Source: Amanita rubescens (lineage: Eukaryota > Basidiomycota > Agaricomycetes > Agaricales > Amanitaceae). Taken from it: a stretch of 21,031 bases of DNA. The stretch covers positions 1 through 21,031 of the forward strand of contig WION01000760.1 in the NCBI GenBank assembly GCA_015039365.1, written 5' to 3'. A program made the position numbers and the translations under genes. The notes beneath the pieces were generated by a model. That model made no database searches. It was not told the origin of the DNA and saw only the letters and a program-made list of their open reading frames with translations. Of the stretch, positions 2,408 to 20,458 are shown in pieces; within the stretch, counting starts at the first letter, position 1; each line of letters opens with the position of its first letter.

Positions 2408-2597
2408 TCACGCAAATATACGACTAGACCTTAGTCTAGTTTTAACAGTCAAAATCTGTCTCGTTATCGTCTAAGTTCCCTTGAGGACTTATCCGATAAC
2501 ACTCTTATACTTTGAACGTTCTTAAGTGCCGGAACTCCCTTGAGGAACCTACGGTACCTGATAGGCTTGACTTATCAGTGAACGAACAAACGTAACA

Positions 2598-4142
2598 CCA
2601 ACATTTCTCCGCTTTCAACGACAATTTGTACCGCTTTAATTTTTCTAAGATTTGATTCACATGTAGTTTATGCGTCTCTTCATCTTTAGAGTACACCAAT
2701 ATGTCATCCATGTATATCACCACCCATCCTTCCACTATTTCCTCTCTAAATATGTCATTCATCATCGTTTGAAAGGTTGCCGGTGAATTCGTGAGTCCAA
2801 AGAACATTACTAACGGCTCAAACAACCCTCTATTCGTTCTGAATGCCGCCTTCCACTCATCTCCTTCCTTTATCCGTATGTTATTGTACCCCCACCGGAT
2901 GTCCATCTTCGAGAATACTTTTGCGTGACTAAGTTGATCCGCTAGTTCAGATATCAGTGGTAATGGATATCTGTTCTTTATCATCATCTCGTTCAGTTTT
3001 CGGTAATCTTGTACCGGCCTCAACTTCCCATCCTTCTTTTTAATGAAGAAGAACGGCGATGCCATCAGGGATTTGCTGGTTCTTATCCGCCCTGTTTCTA
3101 GGTTATCTTTCAGGAACGCATCTAATTGCTCTTGTTCCTCTTTATTCAGTGGGTAGATCTTACAATCCACCGCTTGGGCGCCAGGCACCAACTCGATCGC
3201 GTGATCCCATCTTCCTCGTTTTGGCAGTTCATCAAACGTCTCCTTGTCAAACACTTCTCGGTGACTTAAATAATGAGCGGGTACGATATCTTTCACATCG
3301 CGTTTTATTTGATTTGCTACCGCTATTTCAGTTGCCGTGGTTGCGTGAGCTCTTATTCCCCAACTCGTCTCTTCGTTCTCCATTACCACTAACAATCTAT
3401 CTCCCTCCTCCCACTCATGTGTTCCACTGGTCTCGTCATTGCCCTCAGTGTCTATAGTGTCGTCGTCCTCTCCTTCTACGTGGCATGTACCTGGGCAATT
3501 TTTCATAAGGAGTGAGCCCGTCTTCCAGTTCACGATCGGATTATGATGTCTTAACCAATCGTGTCCTAAGTATATGTCAAGCTTTCCGAGCGCAGATACG
3601 CCGAATTCAAACACTTCGTAGTGAGTCCCTACTTGCAGTTTTAATTGTACCATCTCCTTTAACGCTCCCCCTAAGTTCGGCGTGCCGTCGGCATTATAGA
3701 CGGGGATGGGTCGGTCTAGGCGGCGTGTATTAAGATTATGTTGTCGTACAAATTTTTCGTTAATGCAAGAGCCCGTGCATCCCGAGTCGACGAGTATCTC
3801 TACCTTATGTCTTTGAAAGGTATCGAGTGTGGTGATCACGCCGCTGACCGTTATTTGGTTCTTTCCTCTCCCCCGTACATAACGTTCCTTCGTCTTTAAA
3901 TTTTGCAAATGCCACAATGCATTTTTTTCCGTCATTCCGTTCAACGCATTCACCGTTTCTGCTGTCGCTTCCCTTTCTCTCGTCTTATGTACCCATTGTT
4001 TTAGACTTTGCACCGCTATTTCTTCTGGTTGTTCCCACACCCTTCTCACCATCCACGGTCCCTTCCACGTCTCTAATTTGTCCTTTTTTGTCGTTATCTT
4101 TTTGTTCCTCCATTTATGTTCTAACCCTCTGAGTTCGTACAT
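2598..4142 (-). pseudogene. pol: gypsy pol: protease and reverse transcriptase, broken by LTR insertion
   Basis: From the ATG at 4142 there are 515 codons before the inserted LTR, but the frame is open further upstream into gag, so translation probably enters by frameshift rather than at this ATG. A retropepsin-like active site DSGCTGS starts at residue 119. Reverse transcriptase follows with LRPVQDYRKLN, the FFGLTNSPATFQ block and the catalytic YMDD at residues 477-480. The reading frame then stops making sense after KAEKC: the next 31 residues before the TAA at 2505 are antisense LTR. RNase H and integrase are missing here. The copy cannot make a complete polyprotein, although the portion present shows no other frameshift, so the insertion may be fairly recent. 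Confidence 0.88.
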
Positions 4143-4208
4143 AATGCAATCGATATTCAGTTTAGAATCTTCGTATTGTACATCAGGGGTCGTAACATAA
4201 CGTTCTTC

Positions 4209-6188
<1,980 letters not shown>

Positions 6189-6410: not shown

Positions 6411-6703
6411 ATCTTCTACTGTATGATTAGAGTCTGAGTTTTTTATTTGTATTTGAAAGTTTGACAATATGAGTAAAACCCTTGACTTCCATATAGAGAC
6501 TTGTGGCTACACCTTTTGTGATAAAACAATCACAAAATATGCCACTGATCATAACAGGCTGCCAGAAGTCCATGAGAAGCCAATTTCATGTGTTTTGCCT
6601 TGCCAATTTTGCAGACAATTTCAATACTTTGCCTGTACAATCACACCTAATTTGTTCATCACATCAATCTTTATAATATGCTCTACTTAGTGCTTAACAC
6701 AAT

Positions 6704-8080: not shown

Positions 8081-9408
8081 ATCCCCACTGAGGCTCGTCT
8101 CAGCACCCATAGGCTCGTCTCAGCACCCTTAGGCTTGTCTCAGCACCCCCAGGCTCATCTCAGCATCCCTAGGCTCATCCCACCATCCCCAGGCTCGTCT
8201 CAGCACCCCCAGGCTCACCCCACCATCCTCAGGCTCGTCTCAGCATCCCCAGGCTCATCTCAGCACCCTTAGGCTTGTCTCAGCACCCCCTGCTTCGTCT
8301 CAGCATCCCCAGGCTCGTCTCAGCACCCTTAGGCTTGTCTTAGCACCCTTAGGTTCGTCTCAACACCCCCTTCTTCGTCTCAGCATCCCTAGGCTCATCT
8401 CAGTACCCCCAGGTTCGTCTCAGCATCCCCAGGTTCGTCTCAGCACCCTTGGTCTCACCCCACCATCCCCAGGCTCGTCTCAGCACCCCCTGCTTCGTCT
8501 CTGCATCCCCAGGCTCGTCTCTGCATCCCCAGGCTCGTCTCTGCATCCCCAGGCTCGTCTCTGCATCCCCAGGCTCGTCTCTGCATCCCCAGGCTCATCT
8601 CTGCATCCCCAGGCTCGTCTCTGCATCCCCAGGCTCGTCTCAGCACCCTTAGGCTCGCCTCAGCATCCCCAGGTTCGTCTCAGCACCCTTAGGCTCTCCT
8701 CAGCATCCCCAGGTTCGTCTCAGCACCCTTAGGCTCGTCTCAGCACCCCCAGGTTCATCTCAGCACCCTTAGTCTCACCCCACCATCCCCAGGCTCGTCT
8801 CAGCACCCTTAGGCTCGTCTCAGCACCCTTAGGCTCGTCTCAGCACCCTTAGGCTCGTCTCAGCACCCCCTTCTTCGTCTCAGCATCCCTAGGCTCGTCT
8901 CAGTACCCCCAGGTTCATCTCTCGTCTCAGCACCCTTAGGCTCGCCTCAGCATCCCCAGGTTTGTCTCAGCACCCTTAGGCTCATCTCTGCATCCTCAGG
9001 CTCGTCTCAGCACCCTTAGGCTCGTCTCTGCATCCCCAGGCTCGTCTCAGCACCCTTAGGCTCGTCTCTGCATCCCCAGGCTCGTCTCAGCACCCTTAGG
9101 CTCGTCTCTGCATCCTCAGGCTCGTCTCAGCACCCTTAGGCTCGTCTCAGCATCCCCAGGCTCGTCTCAGCACCCTTAGGCTTGTCTCTGCATCCCCAGG
9201 CTCGTCTCTGCATCCCTAGGCTCGTCTCAGCATCCCCAGCTTTGTCTCATCCCCAGGCTCATTGTCTCTGCATCCCCAGGCTCGTCTCAGCACCCCTAGG
9301 CTCATCTCAGCACCCCCTGCTTCGTCTCAGCATCCCCAGGCTCGTCTCAGCCCCCTTAGGCTTGTCTCGCCATCCCTAGGCTTGTATCGCCATCCCCAGG
9401 CTCTCGGC
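8081..9408. repeat. Minisatellite, 20-bp unit, about 66 copies
   Basis: The unit is CTCGTCTCAGCACCCTTAGG with many point variants. The main second type is CTCGTCTCTGCATCCCCAGG. Around 8500-8640 the second type repeats by itself, while at about 8990-9180 the two types alternate, making a 40-bp higher-order unit. The plus strand is C-rich. Three copies make 60 bp, so the reading frame cycles and long low-complexity ORFs arise on both strands; I treat them as non-coding. The array lies between decayed sequence and the WDR5 gene's 3' side. Confidence 0.9.
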
Positions 9409-9898: not shown

Positions 9899-11364
<1,466 letters not shown>

Positions 11365-14545: not shown

Positions 14546-17500
14546 ATGTCTAGCGCCGCAAACATCAATATCCCCGGCAGCCAGTTCACCGACATTGGGG
14601 GCGATCAGATCAATAATTACGGCCTCATTACGGGCAACTTGAACATGCCAGTGCATTATCGTACGCTGTTTGCTTCCTACTCGTAGCTACCGGGTCGTGA
14701 CCACATAGATACAGGCACTGTCTTTGATATCTTGAAGGACTCGGGTCAAATTGCTATTCACGCTGCTTATAATTCTGCAGAACGCGAGTCAGAACATGCA
14801 TCAACCTGTCAGGGGGGTACTCGCGAAAGTGTTTTATCAAAGCTCATGCAGTGGTCCGGAGCTAGTGATGGATACCCAGTGTGTTGGCTCGAGGGACCTG
14901 CCGGCTCAGGGAAGTCGACAATCTTGCATACCATTGCGGAGCAATGTGACGATGAGGGGCGGCTCGCATTCAGCTTTTTCTTTTCAAGAGGCAAAGCTGA
15001 TCGCAGCGATACGGCTAAAGTCATCCCCACATTTGCGTATCAGCTTGCCCGATCCCTTCCTGCAATTCAATCACCCTTGTTGCATGTGCTCACAAAGAAT
15101 AATCCATTCTCCCCTTATCTCCGCTTGCACGATCAGCTCAAAAATCTTGTCCTCAATCCCACTCTTAGCATTCAGCAGACCACCCCACACATGGTTGTCA
15201 TCATTGATGGCCTTGATGAATGTAGTGACGAGAATCTCTTACTGCAGCTCATTCATGCACTTGTTGATATGACTCATTACCTTCCATTCCAATTTCTCTT
15301 TGCAAGTCGGCCTGAATCTCGTATCCAACAAACATTTGAATCCCCTTTGATCAAACCAAAGGCATACTTCCTCTCACTTCGAGACTTTCAGGCTCATCAT
15401 GATGTCAGCAACTACTTGAAGCAGCATCTTACAGAAATACACAGGCAAAATTACAACATCATGCAAAAAGTACCACATCCTTGGCCATCTGCAGAACAGC
15501 TTGTTGCTCTTGTCCAGAAATCAGAGGGTTTATTCATCTATGTGTCAACCCTGGTCAAATTTGTGGGTGATAGGCAAGGGCTTCCCCAGGAGAAGCTTGA
15601 GTTAGCTATAACAGCACATCATGGTGTTGATCCTCTATATGAGCAGGTTTTATCAAAAGCTCAAGCTGAGTCTGCTCACTTTTCCTATGTAGTGGGTACC
15701 ATCATATATCTCCACCACCCTCTTGCCATACATGACCTGGAGCAACTTCTACAGCTATCATCTGACCATATTCGACAAGCATTACAGGGATGCCAATCTA
15801 TTTTTGTCCTTCCCAACACTGATCAGGAATCAGTTTGCCCATATCATGCATCATTGAAAGATTTTCTTAGTGATATGAACAGAGCAAAGTTTCATTTTCT
15901 TGACCCCAAGATGTACCATGTTATTATTCTGGTCAACTGCTTGCAGTTGATTGGGCAGGTGCATGAAAACAGTGGTGTTCAGCCTCTGGAATATGCATGT
16001 CAACAATGGTGTTATCACTTCTCTTTGGCACTTTCATGTCAGGCAACAATTGATTTGATGAAGAACTGTGGAAACATAGAGGTGTTGATGGTGAAGTTGA
16101 GCAGAGAGTGGTTAAAAACTTGGATGTATGGGCTGGAAGATGGATTAGAGACTTTTTGTCAAGGTTGTGATTCTGTTCTTAAACAATTACAGGCAAGTTG
16201 TATTTAGACCACTATTGGAATATGTACTCAAGCTTGTCAATTAAGCCACTGCAAAGAGAGTGGAAAGTTGTTACAGAGAGTATGAATCAAATATTGGAGA
16301 TTTCTAAGGTGAATAATCCTTTATGAAACATAATAGAAGGAAAATAATTTTGTTACTCTGCTTAGAATGTATGTAACTTGATATAACATTGTGGCTCAAG
16401 TTGACTATCTTGTGCTATAAATAAATATCAGCTGGTGTGTATTTTGTCAATCTTTCTATAGCAAAGCAGCATTTCTCAAGCAATTATCTCTAGAATGTAA
16501 GCAAGTTGAATTTGTTAGCCTAATCATCAAAATCTAATAATTGCTGTTCTAGAATGTAATATTTGTGCAAAATCAAAAACCAAATATATTGCTAACTGAT
16601 ATTTTGTATTTCATTACTATCATTAGAAAGTAAGTTGCTTTGTTTACATATTTGATAGCTAGATGGTGGTATTGACCACAAAATGTTTTAGTTTGTAAGT
16701 GGTACTTTTGAACATGAACATATGTAATATTCTGATTATCACTTTGTGGCATCAATCTGTGTACAGCAAGTAAGTGATTCAGCTTGACATGTGCAGAACC
16801 TCTGGGTAATGGTTTTGTGACATCTGGCTGTGTTCAGGAAGTAAGTGATTCATGTTGACATGTACAGAACCTCTTGATGATGATTTTGTGGCATCTGGCT
16901 GTATTCAGGGAGTAAGTGATTCAGCTTGACATGTGCAGAACCTCTTGGTGATGATTTTGTGACATCTGGCTGTGTTCAGGAAGTAAGTGACAGGTTGACA
17001 TGTGCAGAACCTCTTGGTGATGATTTTGTGGCATCTGGCTATGTTCAGTATGTAAGTGATTTGGGTTGACATGTGCAGAACCTCTTGGTGATGATTTTGT
17101 GGCATCTGGCTGTGTTCAGGAAGTAAGTGATTCAGGTTGACATGTGCAGAACCTCTTGGTGATGATTTTGTGGCATATGGCTGTGTTCAGTATGTAAGTG
17201 ATTTGGGTTGACATGTGCAGAACCTCTTGGTGATGATCTTGTGGCATCTGGCTGTGTTCAGTATGTGAGTGATTCGGGTTGACATGTGCAGAACCTCTTG
17301 GTGATGATCTTGTGGCATCTGGCTGTGTTCAGTATGTAGGTGATTCTGGTTGACATGTGCAGAACCTCTTGGTGAAGATCTTGTGGCATCTGGCTGTGTT
17401 CAGTTTGTAAGTGATTCAGGTTGACATGTGCAGAACCTCTTGGTGATGATTTTGTGGCATCTGGCTGTGTTCAGAGAGTAAGCAGTGATTCAGGTTAACA

Positions 17501-19733
17501 TGTGCAGAACCTCTTTGTGATGATTTTGTGGCATCAATCTGTGTTCAGTTTGTAAGTGATTCAAGTTGACATGTGCAGAACCTCTTTGTGATGATTTTGT
17601 GGCATCTGGCTGTGTTCAGGGAGTAAGTGATTCAGGTTGACATGTGCAGAACCTCTTGGTGATGATCTTGTGGCATCTGGCTGTGTTCAGTTTGTAAGTG
17701 ATTCAGGTTGACATGTGCAGAACCTCTTGGTGATGATTTTGTGGCATCTGGCTGTGTTCAGTTTGTAAGTGATTCAGGTTGACATGTGCAGAACCTCTTG
17801 GTGATGATTTTGTGGCATCTGGCTGTGTTCAGAGAGTAAGCAGTGATTCAGGTAAACATGTGCAGAACCTCTTGGTGATGATTTGTGGTGTCTGGCCATG
17901 TTCAGTATGTAAGTCATTCAGGTTGACATGTGCAGAACCTCTTTGTGATGATTTTGTGCATCTGGCTGTGTTCAGAGAGTAAGTGATTCAGGTTGACATG
18001 TGCAGAACCTCTTTGTGAAGTGATTTTGTGGCATCTGGCTGTGTTCAGTATGTAAGTGATTCAGGTTGACATGTGCAGAACCTTTTTGTGATGATTTTGT
18101 GGCATCTGGCTGTGTACAGCAAGTAAGTGATTCAGGTTGACATGTGCAGAACCTCTTTGTGATGGTTTTGTGGCATCTGGCTGTGTTCACTGTTCAGAGA
18201 GTAAGTGATTCAGGTTGACATGTGCAGAACCTCTTAGTGATGATTTTGTGGCATCTGGCTGTATTCAGAGAGTAAGTGATTCAGGTTGACATGTGCAGAA
18301 CCTCTTGGTGATGATTTTGTGGCATCTGGCTGTATTCAGGGTGTAAGTGATTCAGGTTGACATGTGCAGAACCTCTTTGTGATGATTTTGTGGCCTCTTG
18401 CTGTGTTCAGGGAGTAAGTGATTCAGGTTGACATGTGCAGAACCTCTTGGTGATGATTTTGTGGCATCTGGCTGTGTTCAGTTTGTAAGTGATTTAGGTT
18501 GACATGTGCAGAACCTCTTGGTGATGATTTTGTGGCATCTGGCTGTGTTCAGTTTGTAAGTGATTCAGGTTGACATGTGCAGAACCTCTTGGTGATGATT
18601 TTATGGCATCTGGCTGTGTTCAGTTTGTAAGTGATTCAATTTGACATGTGCAGAAAGTCTTCATGATGATTTTATGGCATCTGGCTGTGTTCAGGCAGTA
18701 AGTCAATTAGCTTGACATTGTGCAGAACCTCTTGGTGATGATTTTATGGCTGTGTTCAGACAGTAAGTCATTCAGCTTGATATATGAGGATCTCTTCAAA
18801 AGTGATAATTTTGGGACCCTTTGCTGGCATTTAGTTTGTAAGTTGTTTTTTTAGACTCAAGATTTTTTTTAATCATACATTATTTTTGTATTTAGAATGT
18901 ATGTCACTTATTATTTGTTGAGACATTTGCTAATGTCTGTCTTGCTCATAAATCAGAATGTATGTACTTTTGTTCATTCTTTTACACTTGTGTTTCAGTT
19001 ACTCAAAATTTGTAGTGGGTATGTTACTTTTTTACATTTACATTCAAATTCTGCTAACATTGTGTATTAATGTTATCAGAAGGTTAGTGGTTTTCTTAAC
19101 TAATTTAAATTCAAATGCTTACTCTTTCTCTTGTCAGGAGGTATATGTAATACATCTTTTCTATCTCTGATTTGTATGCTAACTCTACTATTACTAAACT
19201 TAGTTGGTATGTTTCTACTATTTTATGCTTAATAACTGAATTAATGTTATTTTTTGACTTCATTTTCAGATTGTATGGTTCTTCATCTCCAGTGCAGTGC
19301 AGAACTTTCTCATCTTTTTTTCATTATTTTCCTTTAGGATGTCAGTTTGTTACTCCTCACTGCAATTTTTTTTGATGCAAAATTCAAATCTGGAATTTGC
19401 TAGCATGTATGTATCCTCTTTGTTCTATACATAGCATATATAATAACATTTACCAATTACTTGACTTTGAAGTACTTTGGTGCTGTTTTTAATTCTTCTA
19501 TTTGTTTCTTGTTGTCATTAAAATATTCTACAGACAATTTTGTGCAGCACTCCAAGTTGGATTGCACTCCCCCTCTCACCTAAAAGACTACATGTGTCAA
19601 TTCAGCAGGTATAGTATGCACATTCCTTTGATCTTTGGTCCATTCTGACATTCCCAACAACTCCTAGCATGCCTTTTTTTTCATTCCATTTATTTTTGTA
19701 CTTTACTTGAAGAATCTTCTACTGTATGATTAG
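14546..19733 (+). CDS. NACHT-domain NLR (STAND) protein with a one-codon-per-exon region
   Basis: Exon 1 is 14546-14660. A 48-nt intron (14661-14708, GTACGC...ACATAG) removes an in-frame TAG, and exon 2 runs from 14709 to about 16192, in phase. The N-terminus is Gly/Asn-rich (QFTDIGGDQINNYGLITGN). The NACHT NTPase has Walker A GPAGSGKS (residues 101-108), Walker B VVIIDGLDEC (201-210) and a sensor-like FQFLFASRPE (233-242), followed by a helical region to Q533. Proteins of this kind are fungal innate-immunity or incompatibility receptors; nucleotide-driven oligomerisation is the family mechanism. Without further introns it would stop at 16207 (537 residues). The phase-preserving splice pattern of 16193-19533 instead leads to exon 19534-19608 (a STPSWIALPLSPKR linker) and, after intron 19609-19667, into an inserted repeat with a stop at 19733. 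The expected C-terminal repeat domain is missing. Confidence 0.75.
14661..14708 (+). other. First intron of the NACHT gene
   Basis: GTACGC...CACATAG, 48 nt. It leaves exon 1 with one extra base and exon 2 supplies two (C+AT). The frames on both sides are the same, and the intron removes the TAG at about 14683. Length and ends match the other introns in the window. Confidence 0.75.
16193..19533 (+). other. Chain of about 46 introns separated by three-base exons
   Basis: Acceptor-NNN-donor junctions (AG-NNN-GT) occur with triplets starting at 16366, 16432, 16494, 16553, 16627, 16692, 16767, 16838, 16909, 16980, 17049, 17120, 17191, 17262, 17333, 17404, 17475, 17549, 17620, 17691, 17762, 17833, 17906, 17976, 18049, 18120, 18198, 18269, 18340, 18411, 18482, 18553, 18624, 18695, 18760, 18835, 18896, 18957, 19016, 19080, 19138, 19204, 19270, 19338 and 19404. 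Donors are mostly GTAAGT or GTATGT; acceptors are CAG or TAG after pyrimidine-rich sequence. Intron lengths are 55-75 nt, except the last (19407-19533, 127 nt). Branch-like CTAAC/CTAAT is clear in many outer units (16590, 18930, 19053, 19179). No triplet is a stop, and all keep the phase of the flanking exons. The first step could be a GC-AG intron (GCAAGT at 16193 to 16276), AGA at 16277, then GTATGA 16280-16365; or a single longer intron. Confidence 0.7.
16767..18762 (+). repeat. 71-bp tandem array, about 28 units, each a complete intron plus one triplet
   Basis: Units are close to identical. Each starts GTAAGTGATTCAGGTTGACA, passes a CATGTGCAGAACCTCTTGG segment and ends in GTGTTCAG, followed by a variable triplet. 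Twenty-one of the 28 intron parts (16770-18759) are exactly 68 nt; the others are 62-75. The flanks (16695-16766 and 18763-18834) are diverged relatives. The triplets are not conserved: seven TTT, six TAT, five AGA, three GAA, three GGA, two CAA, and one each of GGT, GCA and ACA. Two of the units starting after AGA carry an inserted AGC right after the donor GTA. Confidence 0.93.
19534..19608 (+). other. Linker exon of the NACHT gene
   Basis: 75 nt between acceptor CTACAG and donor GTATAG, read in phase 0 as TILCSTPSWIALPLSPKR followed by LHVSIQQ. The STP...ALPLSP core resembles the STPHIYLSALPFSP-like segment that joins NACHT and WD40 parts in Agaricomycete proteins (from memory). The following intron, 19609-19667, has a CTGAC branch site and ends CTCCTAG. 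Six bases later the poly(T) of the inserted repeat begins. Confidence 0.55.
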
Positions 19734-19850
19734 AGTCTGAGTTTTTTATTTGTATTTGAAAGTTTGACAACATGAGTAAAACACTTGACTTCCATGTAGA
19801 GACTTGTGGCTACACCTGTGTGATAAAACAATCACAAAATATGCCATTGA
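19674..19850 (-). repeat. Poly(A)-ended repeat, copy B (uninterrupted)
   Basis: This copy matches copy A at 6190-6548 once the tRNA-containing insertion is removed. On the minus strand it ends AATAAATGG-AATG-A8 directly inside the last recognisable NACHT-gene exon. Its other end continues without a break into the WD40 coding sequence, so on this side it may simply be the 3' UTR of a retroposed WD40 transcript. Confidence 0.7.
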
Positions 19851-20130
19851 ATCCCACACCTTCAAAGACTGGTCACCTGAGCCAGAGGCAATGTGTGTGC
19901 CATCAGCACAGAAGGCAACAGAATAGATGGCCCCAGTGTGGCCATTGAGCAACTTCAGTACAACCCCAATCGAGGCATCCCACACCCACACAGACTTGTC
20001 ACCTGAGCCAGAGACAATATGTGTGCCATCAGCAGAGAAGGTGATAGAATAGACGGTCCCAGTGTGGCCCTTGAGCACCTTCAGCTCAGCTCCAGTCAAG
20101 GCATCCCACACCTGCACTGTGACAGACCGG
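19851..20130 (-). pseudogene. WD40-repeat fragment of the NACHT-WD40 type
   Basis: On the minus strand two WD units can be read (KVLKGHTGTVYSITFSADG...SGSGDKSVWVWD and KLLNGHTGAIYSVAFCADG...SGSGDQSLKVWD), plus the end of a preceding one (VTVQVWDALTG). Units are 42 residues (126 bp) and strongly alike at the DNA level, as in fast-evolving HET/NWD propellers. The open frame runs to a TAA at 19746 through the repeat's sequence. On its 5' side it reaches an ATG at 20219 inside the LTR, which is not the gene's own start. No introns are seen. It is a fragment cut by the LTR at 20131; it may be the 3' end of a retroposed mRNA. Confidence 0.75.
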
Positions 20131-20458
20131 TGTAACAACAAAACAGAGGTTGTGTTGGGTGCAACCTCTGAGGCTCGGTGTTTGCCGAGCAAGTTCAGCA
20201 GCACCAAAAGGGTGCTCATCTGAGTTCGGTTGCACTCTTGGGGCTCGGGAATGTAGAACTGAAGTGCGGGGGAGAGAAAGAATGTATAACTGTTGAAACT
20301 AGGGGTAACAAGTCCCTAGCGAGCAGCGCAGTATAGTACATGGAATGTACTACTTACCGAGTGTGGTGTGGAGTTGTTAAGAGCTTTACTGGAGCTGGGG
20401 CTCAACAGTAGACAGTAGAGAGGATAATAGGATAAGGATTGACGCTACTAGAGTACAG

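Follow-up and report, generated by a model that had tools for sequence, protein, structure and literature searches.

How far can a coding sequence be cut up and still be read? The question is raised by a locus in Amanita rubescens where a gene appears to be read one codon at a time through dozens of successive exons. The window, that is, the whole 21,031-nt stretch of DNA that was analyzed, corresponds to contig C716 in a genome of 75.7 Mb, and its public protein is F5887DRAFT_1294564 (P0001). The original prediction, made from this single copy, placed 45 consecutive three-base exons at 16193..19608 and suggested either a splicing-dependent switch in an immune receptor or a graveyard of intron insertions. 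From the genomic DNA, we consider it quite probable that the gene belongs to a NACHT-type (STAND/NLR-like) family whose C-terminal part is a chain of predicted, mostly one-codon exons, which would be spliced to a single frame and likely form a rapidly diversifying recognition segment.

Gene Layout in the Window

The second exon matches the Pfam families NPHP3_N (E=7e-28) and NACHT (E=1.3e-13), and its translation contains GPAGSGKS, the P-loop of a NACHT-type NTPase, in agreement with the NACHT immune-receptor-like gene first proposed (Table 1). No WD40, ANK or TPR match turned up in exon 2 (Pfam) or in the predicted spliced tail, where 0 families matched with a cutoff of E=1; since part of the fungal NACHT/STAND family is repeat-free, this weakens only the label "repeat NLR". 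As predicted after splicing, the tail of the gene is short, open and free of repeats, and the joined reading frame is open throughout its 623 residues. The chain of the original prediction was confirmed, but both borders shift: position 16193 marks the GC donor of the intron ahead of exon 3, and the last exon extends to its stop at 19614. Judged by eye, the proteins of many relatives apparently run through a site such as the donor at 16193, and a segment like exon 3 was found by regular expression in 9 of 119 relatives.

Table 1. Predicted features of the NACHT gene in the window.
Feature	Position	Strand	Basis
Exon 1, with the start codon and a short N-terminal stretch	14546..14660	+	P0001 read against DNA, borders by eye; as in public model
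Exon 2: NACHT (STAND NTPase) domain, then helical region	14715..16192	+	Pfam; open frames 92-93% identical in six other copies
GC-AG intron, 53 nt	16193..16245	+	GCAAGT donor common to all eight copies
Exon 3, 21 codons, 63 nt: PLQREWKVVTESMNQILEISK	16246..16308	+	Open in copies
5' outer one-codon exons AAT CTG AAT AAT AAA TTT (N L N N K F) with introns	16366..16694	+	Chain of 6
Core array: 29 one-codon exons in ~71-nt tandem units (68-nt intron plus triplet)	16767..18762	+	Period-71 tandem repeat
3' outer one-codon exons TTT AAT AAT TGG AAG GAG TTG ATT GAT CAT (F N N W K E L I D H) with introns	18835..19406	+	Chain of 10
Last exon, 81 nt, with stop TAG: TILCSTPSWIALPLSPKRLHVSIQQV	19534..19614	+	Frame and TAG common to six copies without array defects; conserved in alignment

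The Chain of Three-Base Exons Against Chance

All 45 AG-NNN-GT units were recovered in order and at the 55-75 nt intervals initially described, from 16366-16368 (AAT) to 19404-19406 (CAT), one pattern match inside an intron having been removed before the counts. The 44 introns between the triplets are each 55-75 nt long, and the introns flanking the chain measure 57 nt before it and 127 nt after it. Every unit (45/45) retains exactly three bases that form a sense codon in phase with both exon 3 and the last exon, just as had been proposed. The further claim that 16-17 outer units are unrelated to the tandem repeat holds approximately for 16 of them, six on the 5' side and ten on the 3' side, whose introns show an identity of 0.39-0.58 to the core consensus and are barely separable from unrelated sequence, given a maximum of 0.556 in shuffled controls (n=100); three introns at the array edges grade into the consensus, with identities of 0.67, 0.83 and 0.69.

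It could be argued that 16309-19533 is simply one large intron or untranslated DNA with a minisatellite, AG-NNN-GT being a non-coding part of the repeat unit, a reading which we regard as improbable. Two thirds of the triplets do lie in the 71-nt tandem repeat, where one chance motif is multiplied, and the public gene model ends inside the first intron, ahead of the chain. The 16 outer triplets, however, lie in unique DNA, and their chains stand far above those in shuffles: the longest chain is 6 in the 5' flank and 10 in the 3' flank, against at most 2 and at most 3, respectively, in 1000 dinucleotide shuffles. Among exon lengths of 0-9, a length of three gives the best chains in these flanks, the runners-up being chains of 2 and 4, both at length 7, and none of 194 background segments of 768 nt (82,872 nt, both strands) had a chain above 1. 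The splicing signals are less favorable to the chain: the core introns contain two AGs ahead of the predicted acceptor, and of array introns 8 and 35 one has no branch-like motif in the searched range and the other has one weak motif.

Copies of the Gene in the Genome

A query with the array identified, among the best-scored candidates, eight loci, all in the NACHT gene family and adjoining a NACHT exon, a search that dispersed single copies could escape. Beside the window these are C557a, C557b, C223, C746, C321b, C321a and C605. A dispersed "mobile gene" was considered and dropped: flanks match between copies over several kb, which points to segmental duplication. A search of viral_contigs and genome_contigs found no DNA of close relatives beyond this genome. 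Within it, five regions with ordinary NACHT paralogues were translated; they belong to other subfamilies and proved unusable for reading the chain. The eight copies serve as natural controls, with intact ones, one that is partly broken (C321a) and one that is decayed (C605).

The six copies without array defects, a set from which C321a was excluded, each hold 38 to 52 codon-sized chain exons. Their array exons are sound in 184/184 cases, partly by choice as these copies were labeled by their clean arrays, with 180 exons of 3 nt, four of 6 nt and no stops. Adding C321a gives 216/219. The predicted spliced tails of the six copies are open, in frame and share a common TAG end, in a check that left out the sixth 5' triplet (TTT or TTG in the alignment) outside the window copy. 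The decayed C605, in contrast, has 8 of 22 array exons broken by wrong length or a stop, with 14/22 sound; the resulting Fisher value of 4.6e-9 for the six copies against C605 is too strong, as the units arose from one another by duplication and clean arrays were the ground for choosing the six. Such failure of exon lengths and stops in a decayed copy speaks against a non-coding minisatellite.

The copies also bear on a further reading, which we consider very unlikely, that the whole family has died or is decaying and its chain is a relic. In favor of decay, C605 combines in-frame stops in the NACHT exon with its broken array exons; C321a carries three array exons of 4 nt (32/35 sound), which are consecutive and of a summed length divisible by three, yet read TAA TAG, as well as an insertion of ~690 nt in its last intron; and the stretch of C179 that was examined yielded no more than a fragment similar to the 3' end of the gene. 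These cases are set against NACHT frames that are open in seven copies, including C321a, pairwise dN/dS below 1 in 21/21 comparisons (all values between 0.28 and 0.89), conserved junctions (see below) and the six open predicted tails.

The copies also differ in several small respects. The first array exon has six bases (CAACTT or CATCTT) in C557a, C223, C746, C321b and C321a, and three (CAA) in the window and C557b. The donor after the TGG exon is GCATGT instead of GT in all seven non-window copies, and C223 has a GC donor at one core unit; these donors weigh against the chain of one-codon exons, as do the frame-breaking array units of C321a beside an open NACHT frame.

Constraint on Junctions and Frame

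When the open copies are compared over their unique flanks (seven copies for the 5' flank; six for the 3' flank, where C321a was left out), changes affect 2/180 columns of the junctions (acceptor, triplet and donor) compared with 110/960 intron columns (Fisher 8e-7), and indels of the open copies fall in introns. Conserved outer junctions between changing introns are not what a single large intron would lead one to expect. Against the decayed copy the constraint is weaker, with 13/182 junction and 122/957 intron columns changed between the window and C605 (p 0.03) and 12/182 and 107/957 between C557b and C605 (p 0.06). Two triplets of C605 have extra bases (GAAG, TTTG).

The expectation that a retained 68-nt intron would disrupt the frame was borne out. 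If an array intron of the six copies were retained, the reading frame would hit a stop at codon 6 in 172/178 cases and at codon 7 in 2, and would meet none in the other 4.

Codons and Introns in the Core Array

The comparison of several copies adds a feature beyond the original prediction, namely that variability is highest in the codon columns of the array while the introns are nearly constant. Across the 150 core units that are spaced exactly 71 in the six copies, the fraction of minor bases is 0.55, 0.46 and 0.25 in the three codon columns, whereas intron columns have a mean of 0.009 and a maximum of 0.06. Among unit pairs with identical introns, the codon differs in 3727/4592. Codon columns that are 25-55% variable beside introns at 0.9% would be unexpected for a plain minisatellite. 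The contrast of three hypervariable with 68 nearly constant bases marks where change is tolerated or favored.

The same pattern is found between the closest copies. C321b and C746 have flanks that are 99.6% and 98.9% identical, and over 26 aligned units 12/78 codon bases differ compared with 4/1771 intron bases (introns of unequal length were left out, and one 3-nt exon was compared with the first three letters of a 6-nt exon). In addition, whole codon-plus-intron units are absent on either side. Plain turnover of units would homogenize the codons along with the introns, so that codon differences outlasting it speak for either strong selection favoring change or mutation aimed at the codon. 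As single codons differ strongly among sister genes with almost identical introns, the chain likely builds a recognition segment that changes fast.

The near-identity of the core introns would also fit a graveyard of insertions, the second suggestion of the original prediction, in which an introner-like intron struck an older uninterrupted exon repeatedly at codon borders, leaving old coding sequence as the codons, young copies as the introns and a chain of no use. We find this quite unlikely, and in its pure form it is disfavored by the data: every codon border would have to be struck with 3 nt remaining almost every time, giving one-codon spacing nearly everywhere, whereas between the near-identical C321b and C746 entire units are missing on either side and codons have changed beneath identical introns, and runs such as GAT x7 and ACA x6 indicate that codon and intron were duplicated together. 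Insertion may nonetheless be the first origin of the chain.

The core residues (n=188) consist of Y 54, R 30, G 20, T 20, F 15, D 15, E 10, Q 6, S 6, H 5, L 5 and A 2. Returning to the favored reading of codon-sized exons in a receptor, we infer that the receptor senses through this tail, in which Tyr, Arg, Gly, Thr, Phe and Asp abound. Core triplets never end in C or G (0/188), compared with 205/492 NACHT codons. As a point against the reading, the absence of stops is not significant over the 15 distinct triplets (P 0.58; over the 188 units, 1.3e-9).

A Relative With Residues Matching the Chain, and the Public Gene Models

A protein relative, P0060, provides a view of the outer codons. The 3' outer codons FNNWKELIDH align with IGNWKSLVDH of P0060 at a score of 43, which was reached in 0/200,000 random draws for either of two pools and in 0/50,000 shuffles. 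With exon 3 setting the register, NLNNKF of the 5' side aligns with KLHAKF (P 0.0017 and 0.0006). Among the 119 relatives, P0060 is the only one with an NWKxLxDH match, running on through NWKSLVDH; a protein search with its tail returned only itself. Its 585 codons lie on a contig of 2387 nt, which leaves no room for a chain of >2 kb, and P0060 may thus represent either spliced RNA or an uninterrupted gene. The match of FNNWKELIDH argues against non-coding DNA in the window, while the presence of matching residues in a sequence without room for the chain would be compatible with later insertion of introns.

A protein search with the predicted spliced tail returned three public models from Amanita rubescens (E 0.05-0.1). 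Three public models of other copies hold runs of array codons, for example YYDDDDDDD, in line with the chain; counting against it, the three longer public models blend triplets with intron-derived peptide. Parts of the public models assume longer core exons, in which an acceptor at GTGCAG in each unit would produce exons of 44 nt, as seen in peptides such as NLLVMILWHLAVF and PLGDDFVASGCVQ in P0121-P0123. We give this arrangement very little credence, as it would leave an intron of only 27 nt per unit, shift the frame at each unit and meet a TGA in one of the three frames; the public models themselves switch between 44-nt exons and triplets.

A Proposed Mechanism

If the array is spliced as one-codon exons, a three-base exon is likely too small to hold two splicing complexes at once, and the introns would for this reason be removed one by one, with every splicing step adding one codon and uncovering the next donor. 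Skipping of a three-base exon would keep the frame, while retention of a core intron would usually bring a stop at the sixth codon. At the level of the genome, unequal exchange between near-identical introns could lead to the gain, loss and shuffling of whole codons without a frameshift, and selection for new residues would keep the codons unlike.

On these grounds the locus might be a codon-cassette array, in which the identical introns form a removable recombination scaffold, each unit carries one hypervariable residue, and a binding segment of ~20-36 residues is extended, trimmed and reordered codon by codon, without frameshift, through very strong diversifying selection or codon-aimed mutation; on this proposal we are evenly divided. 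Should it be true, the Tyr/Gly/Arg/Asp-rich product would act like an evolvable, germline-shuffled binding loop. The locus makes two questions testable, namely how a spliceosome handles more than 40 consecutive three-base exons and how receptor diversity can arise through intron shuffling.

Comparison With Known Systems

Several known systems share parts of this arrangement. The micro-exon genes of schistosomes likewise have many consecutive tiny exons with lengths that are a multiple of three and predicted protein variation; their exons are mostly longer than one codon, there is no homogenized tandem array, and the organisms and proteins differ from those of the Amanita chain. Drosophila recursive splicing ratchet points resemble it in the adjacency of acceptor and donor and in stepwise removal, which is proposed here for Amanita. 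Between the sites of the ratchet points lies nothing or an aid to exon definition, whereas in the Amanita chain a retained codon would sit between them.

The closest precedent comes from truffles, where, according to papers that cite it, the original account of the 3-bp mini-exons of the nank genes is reportedly that of Iotti et al. in 2012. The NACHT-ANK genes of Tuber melanosporum are reported to have tens or dozens of 3-bp mini-exons and alternative splicing (PMC9815663, PMC3689799, PMC4986451, PMC10197012), and the statement of the original prediction that it knew of no described gene with such a chain is not supported. By its sequence, with 45 such exons in the window, the Amanita gene is likewise a NACHT gene with dozens of 3-bp exons, and the two systems share NACHT receptor-like genes, an expanded family, dozens of codon-sized exons and a proposed diversification of the C-terminal recognition part. 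The truffle is an ascomycete with ankyrin repeats, whereas A. rubescens is a basidiomycete and no ankyrin repeats were found in its exon 2 or spliced tail; alternative splicing is reported for the truffle genes, and the Amanita chain is predicted from DNA.

A second parallel is provided by HET-D/HET-E (HNWD) of Podospora anserina, which has near-identical WD40 units with high internal conservation and a few hypervariable codons, concerted evolution and unit shuffling (PMC12222747, PMC4986451). The Amanita array likewise shows near-identical tandem units, hypervariable codons and unit turnover in a fungal NLR. The two differ in that the constant repeat part of HNWD is translated into a beta-propeller, whereas in A. 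rubescens the constant part is predicted to be intron and the variable codon alone to be kept; the 71-nt unit is not divisible by three and its retained intron mostly runs into a stop at codon 6, so the repeat unit itself fails as a translated repeat of the HNWD type. The Amanita case would thus join features of the truffle and HNWD systems, with codon-sized exons and a constant part that is predicted to be removed. That even exons below three bases can be spliced is shown by an Arabidopsis single-nucleotide exon (PMC4674806).

In the open-licence literature, we found no report of such a chain in a basidiomycete. To the truffle precedent, the present analysis adds a basidiomycete lineage, the codon-versus-intron contrast and a pseudogene control. 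That a basidiomycete has such a chain as well suggests a device that is either ancient among fungal receptors or was invented more than once.

Neighboring Sequence

Directly past the gene, the minus strand of the window at 19746-20315 has an open frame with WD40 repeats (a 126-nt tandem repeat, 2.1 copies), and the block common to the other copies ends at 19850. The stretch at 6411-7489 matches the 3' flank behind the gene in other copies, and since 6411-6548 also matches 19714-19850, the window seems to contain pieces of a duplicated segment. In C179 (L033 5352-5768), sequence resembling the gene's last intron and last exon together with its 3' flank lies near a WDR5-like gene; no array or NACHT was found within the 8.5 kb examined there. 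Elsewhere in the window, minus-strand frames at 2505-5620 have the gag, protease and reverse transcriptase domains of a retrotransposon, a minus-strand frame at 9995-10384 strongly matches the WDR5 beta-propeller, and a minisatellite of 20-nt units in ~65 copies occupies 8091-9403.
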